This document shows, piece after piece, positions 2,338-24,563 of a stretch of DNA of 64,000 bases (positions within the stretch are counted from its first letter, which is position 1; every line of letters begins with the position of its first letter). A model generated the notes under the pieces. The model had not been told where the DNA came from, made no database searches, and saw nothing but the letters and a program-made list of their open reading frames with translations. A program made the position numbers and the translations under genes. The stretch covers positions 2,493,990-2,557,989 of the forward strand of contig NZ_CP022463.1 in assembly GCF_002224485.1 (NCBI RefSeq), in the 5' to 3' direction. The DNA is from Sinomonas sp. R1AF57 (GTDB lineage Bacteria; Actinomycetota; Actinomycetes; Actinomycetales; Micrococcaceae).

Positions 2338-3303
2338 GTGAGTCTGCAGAGAAGCGAGTTCAGTGGCGACGGCGCGACGCCTTTCGTCGAGCTAGACCGT
2401 GCCACATGGGCCCGTCTGTCGGACCGGGTGGAACAGCCCCTCAACCAGGAGGACATCGAGCGGATCAGGGGCCTCGGCGACCCCCTGGACATGCGCGAGG
2501 TGCGCGACGTGTACCTCCCGCTCTCCCGCCTGCTCTCCCTCTACGTCGAGGCGTCCGGGCAGCTGCACACCGCGACCCAGACGTTCCTCGGCGAGCGCAC
2601 GCAGCGCACTCCGTTCGTGATCGGCGTGGCCGGCTCGGTGGCCGTGGGCAAGTCCACGATCGCCCGCGTGCTGCGGGAGATGCTGCGCCGCTGGCCCTCC
2701 ACCCCGGACGTGCAGCTCGTCACCACGGACGGCTTCCTGTACCCGCTCTCGGAGCTGACGCGCCGCGGGCTGCTCGAGCGGAAGGGCTTCCCCGAGTCGT
2801 ACGACCGCCGCGGGCTCCTGCGCTTCGTCGCCGAGATCAAGTCCGGCGCCGAGGAGGTCCGGGCTCCCTGGTACTCGCACCTCACCTATGACATCGTGCC
2901 CGGCCGGGAGGTCGTGGTCCGGCGGCCCGACGTGCTCATCGTGGAGGGCCTCAACGTCCTCGCTCCCGCCCGCCAGCGCCACGACGGGACCACCGGCCTG
3001 GCCCTGAGCGACTTCTTCGACTTCTCCGTCTACGTGGACGCGAAGACGAGCTACATCGAGAAGTGGTACGTGGAGCGCTTCCTCAAGCTCCGCTCCGGCG
3101 CGTTCGCGCAGCCGGAGAGCTACTTCCACCGCTACGCCTCACTCTCCGACGAGGAGGCCGTCACCACCGCGCGCAGCATCTGGAAGCGGATCAACGAGCC
3201 GAACCTGGTCCAGAACGTCCTCCCCACGCGCGGCCGCGCCCAGCTCGTGCTCACGAAGGACCAGGACCACTCGATCCGCCGCATGCTCCTGCGGAAGGTC
3301 TAG
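2338..3303 (+). CDS. coaA: Pantothenate kinase, type I
   Basis: Phosphorylates pantothenate, the first and usually rate-limiting step of coenzyme A synthesis; cytoplasmic. The 321-aa product starts at GTG 2338 ([12 protein letters not shown]) and carries the P-loop [11 protein letters not shown] (about residues 96-106), then TTDGFLYP and the YDRRGLLRF segment characteristic of the bacterial CoaA/phosphoribulokinase-like fold. Length is typical. An ATG four bases upstream is in another frame. It is followed after 5 bp by the VanY-like gene, which may be co-transcribed. Confidence 0.95.
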
Positions 3304-3308
3304 CGGCG

Positions 3309-4214
3309 GTGGCCGCGCCCAGCAGATCGGGCTCCCGCGCACGACGCCGCTGGGTCGCCTCCGCAGCCCTCGCCGCCCTCGCGCTGGGCCTGAGCGCGTG
3401 CTCGCAGACCACGGCGGTTGAGCGGACCCCGGCGGTTGAGCGCAGCGAAGCGGAGTCGACCACGGCGGTTGAGCGCAGCGAAGCGGAGTCAACGGCGGTT
3501 GAGCGCAGCGAAGCGGAGTCGAAACCCCCAAACGCTGCCCCGTCTCCCTCTCCCAGCGGCGTCCCCACCTATCCGAGCCCGACGGCGGCAGCCGCGGCGG
3601 CGCCGTCGTCCGCACCGGCCGTATCCACTGACCCGGCGAACCCGCTCGTGGTCGTGAACAAGCGGCGCCCGCTGGCCCCGATCGACTTCGCGCCGGAGCT
3701 GGTCGTCCCCAACGTGGTCACGGCGTCGGGGCAGCAGGAGCTCCTGAACCCGGTGACGGCCCATGCCGCGGAGCAGATGTTCGCCGCCGCGACGGCCGAT
3801 GGCGCGCCGATGACGCTGCTGAGCGGGTACCGCTCGTACGCGACGCAGGTGGCGACGTACAACGGGTGGGTCGCGCGGCAGGGTCAGGAGGCGGCCGACG
3901 TCGCCTCGGCCCGCCCCGGCTACTCGGAGCACCAGACAGGCTTCGCGTTCGACATCGGGGACCGCTCGGGGGCATGCTCCCTGCAGCCGTGCTTCAAGGA
4001 CACGAAGGCCGCGCTGTGGGTCGCAGCGCATGCGCACGAGTACGGGTTCATCGTGCGGTACCCGTGGTGGTACCACGAGACGACCGGCTACTACTACGAG
4101 CCGTGGCACCTGCGGTACATCGGCGTCGAGGCGGCCACGCACATGCATCGCCGCGGGGTCGCGACCCTCGAGGAGTACCTCGGGCTCCCGGCCGCCCCGG
4201 CCTACGGCGGTTGA
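3309..4214 (+). CDS. VanY-like D-Ala-D-Ala carboxypeptidase lipoprotein with repeat-derived linker
   Basis: A GTG at 3309, 5 bp after coaA, gives a 301-aa protein with basic N-terminus (RARRR), hydrophobic stretch and lipobox LSAC (Cys31), so it is a predicted lipoprotein. Residues about 35-72 are an odd linker, AVERSEAES-type units, encoded by four in-frame copies of the GGTTGAGCG...GTCGAA repeat that is otherwise intergenic. A Pro/Ser/Ala linker follows, then an M15 peptidase domain with zinc/catalytic motifs SEHQTGFAFD (near 207) and YEPWHLRYIG (near 262). It probably trims the terminal D-Ala of peptidoglycan stems. Its stop codon TGA lies inside the next repeat copy, so the repeat array abuts or truncates the C-terminus; the catalytic core is complete. 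Confidence 0.85.
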   Translation: MAAPSRSGSRARRRWVASAALAALALGLSACSQTTAVERTPAVERSEAESTTAVERSEAESTAVERSEAESKPPNAAPSPSPSGVPTYPSPTAAAAAAPSSAPAVSTDPANPLVVVNKRRPLAPIDFAPELVVPNVVTASGQQELLNPVTAHAAEQMFAAATADGAPMTLLSGYRSYATQVATYNGWVARQGQEAADVASARPGYSEHQTGFAFDIGDRSGACSLQPCFKDTKAALWVAAHAHEYGFIVRYPWWYHETTGYYYEPWHLRYIGVEAATHMHRRGVATLEEYLGLPAAPAYGG

Positions 4215-4467
4215 GCGCAGCCCGGCGGCCGAGCGGACCCCGGTGGTTGAGCGGACCCTGTGGTTGAGCGGAGCGAAGCGGAGTCGAAACCCCGGCGGCC
4301 GAGCGGAGCGAAGCGGAGTCGAAACCCCGGTGGTTGAGCGGACCCCGGTGGTTGAGCGGAGCCGAAACCCCGGTGGTTGAGCGGAGCCGAAACCCCGGCG
4401 GCCGAGCCGAAACCCGGGGGTTGAGCGGAAACCCGGGGGTTGAGCGGAGCGAAGCGGAGTCGAAACC
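4205..4467 (+). repeat. GGTTGAGCG repeat array, left arm
   Basis: About eleven full or shortened copies in one orientation. The full unit begins GG(T/C)(T/C)GAGCG, continues with GAGCGAAGCGGAG and ends GTCGAAACCCC (about 35 bp). Short forms end after GGACCCC or GGAGCCGAAACCCC. The first copy supplies the stop codon of the VanY-like gene. The array ends 20 bp from the stop codon of the GIY-YIG gene. The same unit is inverted at 4819-4996 and occurs singly near 18955 and 24542. Confidence 0.9.
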
Positions 4468-4486
4468 GCGCGGCCGAAGAACCCGC

Positions 4487-4759
4487 TCACTCCTTCATGT
4501 TCGACTTCAGGTCTGCGTAGCGACCCTCAACGACGCATCTTCGCTTGGCGCGGCTCCAACCCTGGAGCTTCTTCTCGAGGTAGTAGGCCTCGGCGATGCT
4601 GTCCATCTGCATCGACCACGCGAGCTTCACCGGCCGGCGCCGTCGTGTGTACGCAGCACCCTCACCGGCGGCGTGCTGCGCGACCCGGCGTTCCAAGTCG
4701 GTCGTGCTGCCCACGTAGTAGCTGCCATCGGCGCACTCCAGAATGTAGGTGAAAGCCAT
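4487..4759 (-). CDS. GIY-YIG domain nuclease-like protein, 90 aa
   Basis: A small stand-alone GIY-YIG protein: YILECADGSYYVGST (residues 5-19) carries the paired tyrosines, ERRVAQH carries the candidate catalytic Arg, and EAYYLEKKLQGW carries the metal-binding Glu. It resembles the UPF0213/YhbQ type of small GIY-YIG protein, whose cellular role is poorly known; DNA cleavage is inferred from the fold. It lies between two inverted arrays of the same repeat: 20 bp from its stop codon on the left and 60 bp upstream of its start on the right. That context suggests a functional link between protein and repeat. Confidence 0.88.
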   Translation of the reverse strand: MAFTYILECADGSYYVGSTTDLERRVAQHAAGEGAAYTRRRRPVKLAWSMQMDSIAEAYYLEKKLQGWSRAKRRCVVEGRYADLKSNMKE

Positions 4760-4818
4760 GGAGCCAAAGCTAACCGGGGGCTTACTCGTCCGGAGGGTTA
4801 TCCACAGGAGCTGGTGAT

Positions 4819-4996
4819 GGGTTTCGACTCCGCTGCGCTTCGCTCAACCACCGTCGCCCGTGGGTTTCGACTCCGCTCAACCACCGTCCGCAGTTGGGTT
4901 TCGACTCCGCTGCGCTCCGCTCAACCACCGTCGCCCGTGGGTTTCCGCTCCGCTCAACCACCGTCCACCATGGGTTTCGGCTCCGCTCAACCACCG
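4819..4996 (-). repeat. GGTTGAGCG repeat array, right arm (inverted)
   Basis: Five copies in the orientation opposite to the left arm, each starting GGGTTTC(G/C)(A/G)CTCCGC on the plus strand and ending GCTCAACCACC. They alternate long and short forms and are separated by near-constant 9-10 bp spacers (GTCGCCCGT occurs twice). The array lies between the GIY-YIG start and the promoter region of the PBP gene. Confidence 0.9.
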
Positions 4997-5050
4997 GGGG
5001 TCCAGCTTCCGCACAGGATCTACCTAGGCGGGTCGCATAGGGTACTCCCC

Positions 5051-7201
5051 ATGTCCTCTGGCAGCAAGAAGCTTTTCGACACCACGACCGCCCTCGGCAG
5101 GGTCCTCGCGTTCTTCGCCGTGAGCGCCTTGTGCGGGGTGCTCGTGGCCGGGCTCATGTCCCCGGCCCTGGCACTCACCGGCGGCGCCGCGACCGGTGCC
5201 ACGGAGGCTCTGGCGGCGGCCCCGAGCGAGCTCACGAGCACCCCTCCGGGGCAGGCGACCAAGGTCCTCGCGGCGGACGGCTCCGTGATCGCGAACCTCT
5301 TCACCGAGAACCGCACCGACGTCCCGCTCGACAAGATGTCCCCGAACATCAAGAACGCCATCGTGGCGATCGAGGACTACAGGTTCTACGAGCACGGCGG
5401 CGTGGACCCCATCGGGATCCTGCGGGCGCTCGCCACGGACCTGACGGGCGGCCGCCAGGGCGCCTCGACCCTGACGCAGCAGTACGTGACCAACGTGCTC
5501 AACGAGCAGCTCGTGGCCCAGGGGCAGAGCGCGGACATCGTGCTCAACGGACAGAAGGGCGTCAGCGACAAGCTGCGGGAGATGCAGCTCTCCATCGCGC
5601 TCGAGAAGAAGTTCTCCAAGCACCAGATCCTCCAGGGCTACCTCAACGTGGTGCCCTTCAACGGAAACGCCTACGGGGTCCAGGCCGCGAGCCAGTACTT
5701 CTTCTCCCTCGACGCCAAGGATCTCACCCTGCCGCAGGCCGCGCTCCTCGCCGGCCTGGTCAACGGGCCGGCCTACTACGACCCGTCGCAGCACCCGGAC
5801 CGGGCCAAGGATCGGCGGGACCTCGTCCTCGACGCGATGCTCGCTCACGGCTACATCGACCAGCGCCAGCACGACGACGCCGTCGCCGCCCCCATCCAGC
5901 TCAAGCTGAACCCGCCGCGCCAGGGCTGCGCCTCCGCCGCGCAGGCCCCGTACTTCTGCGACTACGTCCTCCACCAGATCCTCAACGACCCGGCATACGG
6001 CGCGGACCCGACCGCCCGCCTGAACAAGGTCATGCTCGGCGGCCTGACGATCAAGACCACCCTCGACCCGCGCCTGCAGGGCCCCGCCCAGAAGCAGGTC
6101 GACTCGACCACGGGGACCAACCCGGACAAGTGGGGTGCCTCGCTAGTCACGGTTCAGCCGGGCACGGGGAAGGTCGTCGCGATGGCCCAGAACAGCCGCA
6201 TGGCCGAGGGCCAGGGCTCGGGCTTCGTCACGTCCTACAACTTCAACGTGGACTCCGCCGACTCCAACGGCAACGACCTCGGCGGCGCCGGCGGCTACCA
6301 GCCCGGGTCCACGATGAAGCCCGTGACCCTCGCCGCGTGGCTCATGGAGGGGAAGGGGACGGACCAGACGGTGGACGCCTCGCGGCGCCGTTACGGCTCG
6401 AACTTCCCGTGGAAGTCGACGTGCGGCCCGGTCCATGGCGTCTTCGACAGCACGGTGTCCGGCTCCACCGACCTTCAGAACGACGAGGACGGCTACTACC
6501 GCCCCATGACCGTGCGCCAAGGCATTTACAACTCGATCAACACGGCCACGTTCGCCTCCGCCGCCGGGCTGAACGACTTCTGCGACATCCAGCGCGCCGC
6601 CGATGCGCTCGGCATGCACCAGGGAGACGGCAGGGACCACAAGCTCGACCTCTCGACCCTCGGGAACCTGCTCGGCGGCGAGAACGTGGCGCCCATGACC
6701 ATGGCCAACGCCTTCGCGACCTTCGCCGCCAACGGCACGTACTGCGCCCCGATCGCCATCACCGAGGTGGACGACAACCAGGGCAAGCGGATCGGCGGCC
6801 AGTCCCAGCAGTGCACCCCGGGCGCGATGAACCCCGACGTGGCCAAGGCCGCCACGAACGTGCTCCAGGACGTCCTCACCAAGGGCTCGGGCCTCCTGAT
6901 CCCGCAGAAGCTCGGGGTTCCCGACGCCGCCAAGACGGGCACCAACAACGAGAACAGCCAGACGTGGGTGGTGGGCTACACGCAGGGGCTCGCGACGGCG
7001 TCGTTCTTCGGCGAGGCGCTCAACGGCCCCTCGGTCCGGATGGGCCGCGACATCACGGTCAACGGGAAGTTCTACCCCGTGGTCGACGGCGCGTACATCG
7101 CCGGGCCGCAGTGGGCCGGCTACATGCAGCAGGTGGCGAAGTACTACGACCACGGCAGCTTCGACGCCCCGCCCCAGCGGCTCATCAGCGGCCGGGGCTG
7201 A
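5051..7201 (+). CDS. Class A penicillin-binding protein (transglycosylase/transpeptidase)
   Basis: Bifunctional peptidoglycan polymerase anchored in the membrane. The ATG at 5051 gives 716 aa with one TM segment (about residues 16-40). The GT51 glycosyltransferase domain shows AIEDYRFYEHGG (Glu near 106) and GASTLTQQYVTN (near 137). The transpeptidase domain shows all three motifs: active-site STMK (near 420), SIN (near 495) and KTGT (near 627). There is no PASTA tail. The frame stays open far upstream through the repeat array and the antisense GIY-YIG gene, but that part has no protein character. A hairpin 24 bp after the stop (7226-7250) may terminate it. Confidence 0.93.
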   Translation: MSSGSKKLFDTTTALGRVLAFFAVSALCGVLVAGLMSPALALTGGAATGATEALAAAPSELTSTPPGQATKVLAADGSVIANLFTENRTDVPLDKMSPNIKNAIVAIEDYRFYEHGGVDPIGILRALATDLTGGRQGASTLTQQYVTNVLNEQLVAQGQSADIVLNGQKGVSDKLREMQLSIALEKKFSKHQILQGYLNVVPFNGNAYGVQAASQYFFSLDAKDLTLPQAALLAGLVNGPAYYDPSQHPDRAKDRRDLVLDAMLAHGYIDQRQHDDAVAAPIQLKLNPPRQGCASAAQAPYFCDYVLHQILNDPAYGADPTARLNKVMLGGLTIKTTLDPRLQGPAQKQVDSTTGTNPDKWGASLVTVQPGTGKVVAMAQNSRMAEGQGSGFVTSYNFNVDSADSNGNDLGGAGGYQPGSTMKPVTLAAWLMEGKGTDQTVDASRRRYGSNFPWKSTCGPVHGVFDSTVSGSTDLQNDEDGYYRPMTVRQGIYNSINTATFASAAGLNDFCDIQRAADALGMHQGDGRDHKLDLSTLGNLLGGENVAPMTMANAFATFAANGTYCAPIAITEVDDNQGKRIGGQSQQCTPGAMNPDVAKAATNVLQDVLTKGSGLLIPQKLGVPDAAKTGTNNENSQTWVVGYTQGLATASFFGEALNGPSVRMGRDITVNGKFYPVVDGAYIAGPQWAGYMQQVAKYYDHGSFDAPPQRLISGRG

Positions 7202-14697: not shown

Positions 14698-15168
14698 TCA
14701 CCCGGAGAGCCCCGCCTCGGCAAGGCGTTCGGCCCCGTCTCGGAAGGCGCCGCGGAGGTCGCTCTCGCCGAGCCGGGACGCCGCCGAGGCGAAGACGATC
14801 GCCCCGACGATCCGCGCCTCCTGGATCCGCCACGGTTCCGGGAACGGCCCCTCGTCCGGCCGCGGTCCGGGCCACGGCCACGGCCAGCGGCGCGGCCACG
14901 GGGTGCCGCACCAGTCCTCGACGAGCTCGCTCACCCAGCCCGCGGGATTCTCGCCGCGCAGCTGCGCCTCGATGGCGAGGTGCACCACCCGGTTCGCCAT
15001 GCTGACGGCGCCGACGGCGATGTCGTGCGGATCCTTTGGCGGCAGGGGCTGCGGGTTGAGCGCCACCGACTCGACCCTGCGCCCGTTCACGGGGCCGTGC
15101 GGGATGATCGCATCCCAGATCTCGGGACGGAGCCGGCTGATCGCAGCCAGGAGCGGAAAGTGGGCCAT
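14698..15168 (-). CDS. Hypothetical protein with Trp/Pro-rich segment
   Basis: 156 aa. ATG 15168 is preceded by GGGAGGAC, which decides the start over the longer open frame. The sequence begins MAHFPLLAAISRLRPEIWDA, contains VALNPQPLPPKDP and a striking PWPRRWPWPWPGPRP stretch near residue 105, and ends in a helical segment. No TM helix or signal. No recognised family and no catalytic pattern. It is convergent with the preceding gene, 10 bp apart. Confidence 0.55.
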   Translation of the reverse strand: MAHFPLLAAISRLRPEIWDAIIPHGPVNGRRVESVALNPQPLPPKDPHDIAVGAVSMANRVVHLAIEAQLRGENPAGWVSELVEDWCGTPWPRRWPWPWPGPRPDEGPFPEPWRIQEARIVGAIVFASAASRLGESDLRGAFRDGAERLAEAGLSG

Positions 15169-18951: not shown

Positions 18952-18992
18952 TACGGCGGTTGAGCGAAGTCGAAACCCGCCCCGGCGGTTGA
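18952..18992 (+). repeat. Isolated GGTTGAGCG repeat copy upstream of glmM
   Basis: TACGGCGGTTGAGCGAAGTC then GAAACCC, followed by a second half-copy GGCGGTTGAG. It is the same family as the arrays at 4205 and 4819, and its left flank TACGGCGG is the same sequence that meets the first array copy at 4203-4210. It lies 13 bp upstream of the glmM start codon, in its likely 5' untranslated region. Confidence 0.75.
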
Positions 18993-24539: not shown

Positions 24540-24563
24540 GCGGTTGAGCGAGGTCGAAACCCC
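24540..24563 (+). repeat. Isolated GGTTGAGCG repeat copy downstream of rpsI
   Basis: GCGGTTGAGCGAGGTCGAAA followed by CCCC: one short-form unit of the family arrayed at 4205 and 4819, sitting between the rpsI stop codon and its terminator. Confidence 0.7.

Follow-up and report, generated by a model that had tools for sequence, protein, structure and literature searches.

The window analysed here, a stretch of 64,000 nucleotides from the genome of Sinomonas sp. R1AF57 (3.94 Mb, single contig), carries the gene for a small GIY-YIG nuclease that lies between two arrays of one short repeat facing each other across it (Table 1), and we observe that this arrangement is a general actinobacterial system, far wider than first noted. 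Comparison of the sequences supports a common anatomy of the repeat unit, the pairing of gene and repeat, their co-variation and, in one congener, a local clustering of copies around the gene. Since nuclease and repeat change together, with one residue tracking one base pair, the enzyme is suggested to read the repeat, and it very probably recognises its own repeat type specifically. It probably also cleaves the repeat DNA in single-stranded form, and we lean towards considering gene and repeats as a pair resembling repetitive extragenic palindromic (REP) elements and their REP-associated tyrosine transposases (RAYT), with the enzyme acting on single-stranded hairpins. We see about an even chance that the spread of the repeat would be driven by the enzyme rather than by a host function such as the control of DNA uptake.

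Flanks were read in 22 relatives taken first from named genomes. Most actinobacterial homologues lie between arrays that face each other, the repeat varying from species to species, and the core pattern GAGC..TCGAA has few matches in the relatives; as each species has its own unit, units were therefore searched by structure. Similarity across the gene, inverted or direct, scores above 17.5 in 60 of 68 actinobacterial loci, against 9 of the 224 control positions on the same contigs whose 95% level defines this threshold, and inverted similarity alone exceeds it in 51 of the 68. At the 99% control level the figures are 49/68 for the loci and 2/224 for the controls. This comparison leaves out L033 and L047 (short flanks), and the actinobacterial count leaves out the four archaeal and gammaproteobacterial homologues (L021-L024), for which similarity across the gene falls under both control levels. 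Among 153 loci, hairpin-type units stand on both sides of the gene in 124, on one side in 19 and on neither in 10, in line with the expectation of the original prediction that homologues usually have adjacent facing repeats; because L005 and L028 share one protein and L025 is the window's own locus, these loci amount to two fewer independent ones. The units point to the gene, the nearest upstream unit lying on the gene strand in 121 of 137 cases and the nearest downstream unit on the opposite strand in 107 of 130. Outside the actinobacteria, a homologue on a Sphingomonas parapaucimobilis plasmid (48.8% identity) has an inverted pair of GGCTGAGCGAAGTCGAAGCC before the gene and a reverse copy, CCCTTCGACTTCGCTCAGGG, overlapping the gene's 3' end, and comparison of the flanks of Bacillus subtilis YazA, two Cupriavidus homologues and one Microcystis phage homologue revealed no such repeats. 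Separately, a Methylobacterium bullatum homologue (L217, 44% identity) has CCTCAGGATGAGG on both sides, with best across-gene scores of 20 inverted and 19.5 direct.

With respect to the anatomy of the repeat, a survey of two-base internal loops in 4-bp stems with a closing pair near the genes (L021-L024 left out, as in the inner-pair test below) showed GA facing GA to be the top internal-loop pair: it occurs in 67 of 70 loci, and its 336 hairpins compare with about 40 that control DNA would lead one to expect. The unit consists of a variable outer stem, the conserved GA/GA loop, a G-C pair, a one-base bulge and an inner pair. The outer stems seen are GGTT/AACC, GGTC/GACC, CGTT/AACG, GATC/GATC, GATT/AATC, CATT/AATG, CCCT/AGGG and CGCT/AGCG, to which the held-out loci described below add CGTC, CATC and CCTT; these stems are not independent proof of a hairpin, because pairing was required in the unit search. 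The inner pair, which was not used for picking units, is complementary with a one-base 3' bulge in 76 of 79 loci (CG 41, TA 18, GC 17), against a mean of 30.9 and a maximum of 47 in 10,000 shuffles, and the neighbouring offsets give 1 complementary pair without a bulge and 8 with a two-base bulge. Perfect outer stems within loci number 642 against 377 after shuffling, a modest test since copies of one locus are alike. On both sides, the GA of most units is preceded by a pyrimidine and followed by a purine, a favourable setting for paired G-A mismatches. A GA on both top-strand arms, together with the bulge, is unlike a duplex dyad, and a folded single strand is therefore the simpler reading: the unit looks like a single-strand hairpin, which would presumably form in the cell. 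Two variants were observed besides. Microbacterium units (L013, L014, L015, L017) often form head-to-head pairs, giving a long palindrome similar to REP doublets forming hairpins (REPIN-like), and some Nocardioidaceae units, at L112, L114, L121 and L184, have a GA/GA hairpin whose loop is GAA (GCGAGGAACGAGC type), frequently nested in the larger unit, at its tip.

The existence of a 90-residue GIY-YIG protein, as claimed by the original prediction, is confirmed by a Pfam PF01541 match (E 1e-18, 67.8 bits against a cut-off of 22.6) spanning residues 2-72; a second Pfam match, T5orf172, falls under its cut-off, and no HUH tyrosine transposase domain appears among the Pfam matches. Homologues are about 90-120 amino acids long in most rows, and 22 positions are conserved in at least 90% of 74 aligned homologues, including Y5, Y15, G17, R25, H29 and E62. 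Y5, Y15, R25 and E62, which we take to be catalytic-type residues as in other GIY-YIG enzymes, are conserved in 69 to 73 of the 74 rows. The closest solved structures by sequence are those of the UPF0213 proteins 1zg2 (E 4e-16) and 1ywl (E 1e-10), and the sole other GIY-YIG match in the Sinomonas genome lies within a long reading frame (646 amino acids). Several other identities were considered and rejected: a group I intron homing endonuclease (TIGR01453, 18.5 bits against a cut-off of 56.05), a defence module (best PADLOC match E 0.016, unconvincing), a phage module (the PHROGs match, to a family of homing endonucleases at E 0.002, is unconvincing) and a plasmid or phage origin (homologues below 60% identity only, in 10 plasmid records out of 72,556 and 21 phage records out of 50,697). 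As further observations on the family, one locus (L149, G754:C1:1392039-1392732) has the nuclease gene twice in tandem, 445 bp start to start, and four homologues with a disturbed frame or internal stop (L020, L031, L051, L151) are possibly decaying genes.

The evidence that the protein and its repeat change together comes from paralogues, from the protein tree and from a single residue. Five paralogues in genome G612 have five different units, and the units of paralogues also differ in G526, G603, G585, G668, G509, G684, G252, G466 and G449. On the protein tree, in which 12 of 81 branches are starred, the two bases after GAG can be explained by 25 changes, where shuffling gives 50.3 on average and never fewer than 45; within genus g161 the inner code requires 7 changes against 13.6 shuffled, with none of 500 shuffles as low. 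Trees and residue tables leave out L020, L031 and L051 (frame disturbed). L007, L061 and L116 were assigned their repeat classes manually from the outer unit, and L121 was assigned none; this preceded any inspection of the residue column. When protein columns are ranked by the information they share with the repeat code, the top-ranked column corresponds to window residue 90, in the C-terminal tail and outside the Pfam match. Here an inner T goes with K in 18 of 19 proteins of the first set and an inner G with R in 16 of 18, and an inner C goes with varied residues; the window protein itself has E at this column and an inner base C.

This residue rule was fixed in writing before 73 further Nocardioidaceae loci were read; the new matches in G777, G778, G818, G833 (two) and G840, one of those in G845 and the second G754 copy (within L149) were not fetched. 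Dropping L151 (internal stop) and L144, L164 and L165 (protein the same as a known row) leaves 69 usable loci, and after setting aside 20 without a unit of a pre-set stem and L152, with its C-start stem, 48 were scored. In these held-out loci, an inner T goes with K in 9/9 and an inner G with R in 22/22 (together 31/31), and an inner C goes with a small residue (G, S, A or P) in 8/17, so that 39 of the 48 fit the rule, against a mean of 15.5 and a highest value of 28 in 10,000 shuffles. Both sets combined (126 proteins) give T-K in 27/28 and G-R in 38/40. On a tree of the 126 proteins built without the tail, independent pairs behave as predicted in 11/12 (T-K) and 16/19 (G-R) with none opposed; these pairs come from greedy pairing on an unstarred FastTree tree, which is weaker evidence than starred branches, and their p values (1e-3, 3e-5) are indicative owing to weak resolution of the tree and to gaps in the alignment of some tails. 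Eight of the 20 unscored proteins have units of other stems. Adding L160 (inner T, K) alone favours the rule, with pairs at 12/13 and 16/19; the other seven have an inner C with N, H or a gap at the column, and with all eight added the pairs stand at 13/14 and 14/17, none opposed. From this co-variation, the recognition of the repeat by the protein, which the original prediction had only surmised, is strongly supported.

Repeat counts follow the gene, with exceptions. Of the 149 family genomes, 7, from 5 of the 32 genera, have the gene, and these show 8, 39, 48, 90, 98, 219 and 559 matches to GGTYGAG..CGARACC (median 90). In the 142 family genomes that lack it the median is 10, with quartiles of 5 and 14 and a maximum of 56 (one-sided p = 1.4e-4; reversed control p 0.47), so that repeat number does track the gene, as had been proposed. 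More than 8 CGTT matches occur in eight of 347 order genomes (121, 74, 57, 33, 21, 20, 17 and 9), and seven of these eight are exactly the seven with a CGTT- or CATT-flanked gene (L046 and L050, among these, with single copies in the flanks read). CGTT matches number 0-4 in the 16 order genomes in which the gene goes with other stems or with none that was recognised. Across the class, 19 of 296 genomes have at least 120 GGTY matches and 16 of the 19 bear the gene (the other three being G662, G328 and G587), which is found in 30 of the 296 overall; the highest GGTY-type count in the relatives is 706 (G585).

In the Sinomonas genome itself, the pattern GGTTGAGCGN{0,25}TCGAAACC has 54 exact matches (two of them composites containing another match) and its reversed control none, and the repeat is thus present beyond chance. 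The middle of the window unit is mostly CGNAG, once to three times, which gives non-composite matches of 20, 25 or 30 nt. The copies are distributed differently in this genome and in its congener G104. In the former, 13 of the 54 matches lie at most 100 kb from the gene, mostly in the flanking arrays and one other cluster, and the spread is therefore wider than in G104, where all 24 strict copies found in the 400 kb sampled fall in one 65-kb stretch (3,029,969-3,095,304) with the gene at 3,067,945. Ten 20-kb control windows of G104 hold no strict copy and one partial GGTTGAGCG, and 27 of its 48 GGTY matches lie in the 200-kb region around the gene. Three other congeners (G121, G737, G084) have an empty site, with a penicillin-binding protein gene directly after a putative coaA and without the nuclease, the repeats or the neighbouring lipoprotein gene; the gene names are putative, taken from our own reading of the sequences. 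G121 and G084 have repeat copies elsewhere despite the empty site. At the site of the isolated copy at 24542, the anchor is found in 13 of 15 genus genomes, the window's included, with a copy in the window genome (G000) and in G104 and none in the other 11, two of which (G006, G037) show unclear remnant-like sequence.

The mechanism that we propose from these comparisons starts from a repeat unit that, as one strand, would fold into the imperfect hairpin of outer stem, GA/GA internal loop, G-C pair, one-base bulge and inner pair. The nuclease would recognise its own repeat type in single-stranded, strand-specific form, partly via its C-terminal tail, and would nick it wherever the DNA becomes single-stranded, such as at replication forks. 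The cut unit might then be copied or captured during repair and so would spread near the gene first and genome-wide later.

A number of results weigh against this proposal. Concerning the hairpin, computed DNA folding of the window units gives -0.4 and -0.6 kcal/mol, no better than shuffles, and thermodynamic folding, tried as proof of the hairpin, thus failed on them. TA and CGTT units fold otherwise, and the expected outer stem appears in one of five folded units (GGTT, inner GA), with GA paired with TC and the second GA bulged. This GA-TC register is open to units with T as the bulge base (57/81); it needs C as the inner 3' base, which is true of inner-G types only. Energy models may undervalue tandem G-A pairs. 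Concerning the pairing of protein and repeat, a divergent nuclease clade (e.g. L180, L193) is flanked by repeats of other make-up without the GA/GA unit, and the main-type unit was not found at L076, L121, L181, L183, L188, L194 and L195 of this clade. Three paralogues in G845 (L177, L186, L190) have one common unit and tail, so paralogues are not always different, and in genus g161 the outer stem tracks the protein tree weakly (21/500 shuffles as low). The residue column was picked post hoc, before the held-out test, and the held-out proteins all belong to a single family already represented in the first set. An inner C occurs with residue R in 16 of 58 proteins, the CGTT class breaking the rule in this way, and the independent pairs were drawn from a tree of poor resolution: pairing on starred branches yields a single pair and no power, and was replaced for this reason.

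The exceptions to the link between copy number and gene belong here as well. G007 has the gene with another unit (GATC-GA-C, L029) and few GGTY copies, being the one low count (8) among the seven family genomes with the gene; the eighth CGTT-rich genome, G184 (20 matches), has no detected gene; and no close homologue was detected in the repeat-rich genomes G009, G121, G084, G184, G662, G328 and G587. When ten genomes lacking a close homologue (G009, G121 and G084 among them) were searched for GIY-YIG domains, the only matches lay in open frames of 287 to 719 amino acids. Such repeat-rich genomes would be expected after gene loss, their repeats then being relics, or they may owe their repeats to another enzyme. 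G735, G728 and G168 are likewise GGTY- or CGTT-rich without a detected close homologue.

Among the other explanations, the one that survives best is a host function as in Neisseria. Ssn, a GIY-YIG family protein of Neisseria meningitidis reportedly described in Nat Commun in 2025, is said to cut single-stranded DNA at the NTS repeat, and homologues with other sequence specificities have reportedly been found. A nuclease of this kind, kept by the cell, would cut incoming or exposed single-stranded DNA at the repeats, for instance limiting transformation or shaping recombination, and the repeats would spread by ordinary recombination and persist on account of their usefulness. The fold and the repeat pairing are alike to those reported for Ssn, and the link between gene and repeat in actinobacteria and on the Sphingomonas plasmid fits this explanation equally well. 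However, the patchy occurrence of the gene in the family and the empty site in three congeners speak against it, and the clustering in G104 and the paralogues with separate repeats are more like a selfish pair, which leaves an Ssn-like host function possible but unlikely.

We consider it improbable that the repeats are double-stranded palindromes bound by a protein dimer, for regulation or chromosome organisation and without cutting. The outer arms are indeed inverted repeats, the isolated copies in the window are intergenic and the computed single-strand folding of the window units is weak, all of which would suit such a role, but the GA/GA loop and the one-base bulge consistently break the two-fold symmetry of a duplex, and the catalytic-type residues of the protein are conserved. 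A further explanation has the repeats spread by another enzyme of the genome, for example an HUH tyrosine transposase (RAYT), with the GIY-YIG gene as a passenger between them. This would agree with the similar behaviour of RAYT-associated repeats (PMC2817692), but is very improbable given that the repeat type follows the GIY-YIG protein, paralogues of one genome included. Least credible of all are RNA elements (terminators or mRNA stabilisers) in a repeat-rich hotspot that merely includes the nuclease gene, an explanation for which the position of the 24542 copy just 3' of a terminator-like hairpin can be cited and against which stand the flanking and orientation rule over 153 loci, the protein-repeat code and the lack of any Rfam match up to E 0.1 in 3000-5100.

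In the window, the array on the gene's 3' side has GGTTGAGCG starts on the plus strand at 4209, 4245, 4262, 4332, 4350, 4375, 4419 and 4438 and three GGCCGAGC variants near 4226, 4296 and 4397, which agrees with the "about eleven" copies counted originally; several copies are truncated, and the units at 4262-4291 and 4438-4467 follow the strict pattern. The five opposed copies that had been placed on the other side, facing the gene, are likewise present as minus-strand units, with 5' ends at 4849, 4882, 4926, 4959 and 4992. Read on the gene strand, the array before the gene is GGTTGAG...TCGAAACC and the array after it is the reverse complement. The two single copies originally located at 18952 and 24540 both exist, a few bases away from these positions (Table 1), and the conserved minus-strand gene beside the second is presumably rpsI, judging from its sequence. 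A further observation concerns the open reading frame (ORF) at 3063-4214, whose repeat copies directly follow a lipobox-like LSAC and encode a VERSEAES linker; its homologue in G104 (L026) has one such in-frame copy in the same place.

Table 1. Coordinates of the nuclease gene and of repeat copies in the 64,000-nucleotide window
Feature	Position	Strand	Remarks
GIY-YIG nuclease gene	4487..4759	-	90 amino acids; stop codon within coordinates
Array on the gene's 3' side	4209..4467	+	8 GGTTGAGCG starts and 3 GGCCGAG variants
Array on the gene's 5' side	4819..4999	-	5 copies, opposite orientation, pointing at the gene
Four further repeat copies inside ORF 3063-4214	3416..3526	+	starts 3416, 3434, 3467, 3497; in frame
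Isolated 20-nt copy GGTTGAGCGAAGTCGAAACC	18958..18977	+	
Isolated 20-nt copy GGTTGAGCGAGGTCGAAACC	24542..24561	+	terminator-like hairpin on one side, conserved minus-strand gene (3' end) on the other
Partial copy, GGTTGAGCG only	15054..15062	+	

Considering known systems, the small GIY-YIG proteins of the UPF0213/YazA/YhbQ group include the nearest solved structures, and YazA of B. subtilis has no flanking repeats. Closer in kind is Ssn, which by what is reported of it is likewise a small stand-alone GIY-YIG protein tied to a multicopy repeat of its own genome. The pairing, which the original prediction did not know to be described, is probably not without precedent, as Ssn reportedly provides one; among the matches listed in the literature searched we found no description of a GIY-YIG/genomic-repeat pairing. 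Compared with what is reported of Ssn, the system described here has facing arrays, a GA/GA hairpin, a covarying stem, a relation between a residue and a base pair, paralogues with separate repeats and clustering in one congener. The GIY-YIG nuclease is accordingly a candidate enzyme for an abundant actinobacterial repeat class for which no description of a partner was found in that literature, and the tail residue offers a testable residue-to-base code for a very small enzyme.

CGTC-tagged REPs, whose Neisseria members are equated with dRS3, are likewise short palindromic repeats without a known dedicated transposase (PMC3733652); the main text of that paper does not contain the word Actinobacteria. 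In the window the units differ in consensus, starting with GGTTGAG and having no unpaired CGTC end. Our results bear on the question, left open in that paper (PMC3733652), of which enzyme, if any, handles REPs that have no transposase. We tentatively propose, with somewhat less than even confidence, a third, widespread REP system in which a GIY-YIG nuclease would read its own hairpin and spread it outward, with a tail code of K for T-A, R for G-C and small or other residues for C-G, and in which the same kind of enzyme may explain repeats without a known partner (the Sphingomonas TGAGCGAAGTCGAA type and the CGTC REPs).

The resemblance to REP/RAYT systems (REPtrons), to which the original prediction had drawn attention, extends to several features. 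RAYT genes are flanked by inverted REPs that co-evolve with them, REP number is predicted by the gene, and REP copies cluster near rayt genes (Nunvar et al., PMC2817692); the transposase TnpA-REP reads a folded single strand, with a mismatch bulge in E. coli (PMC8266576). The system described here likewise has an enzyme gene between inverted repeats, a gene-linked copy number, co-evolution, copies near the gene and imperfect, mismatched hairpins (PMC2817692, PMC8266576). The resemblance stops at the defining HUH enzyme and the GTAG tag: the enzyme here is a GIY-YIG nuclease and not an HUH tyrosine transposase, and in reading the locus no GTAG tag was seen adjoining the window units. This comparison suggests that the REP/RAYT way of life may have arisen with an unrelated nuclease fold.

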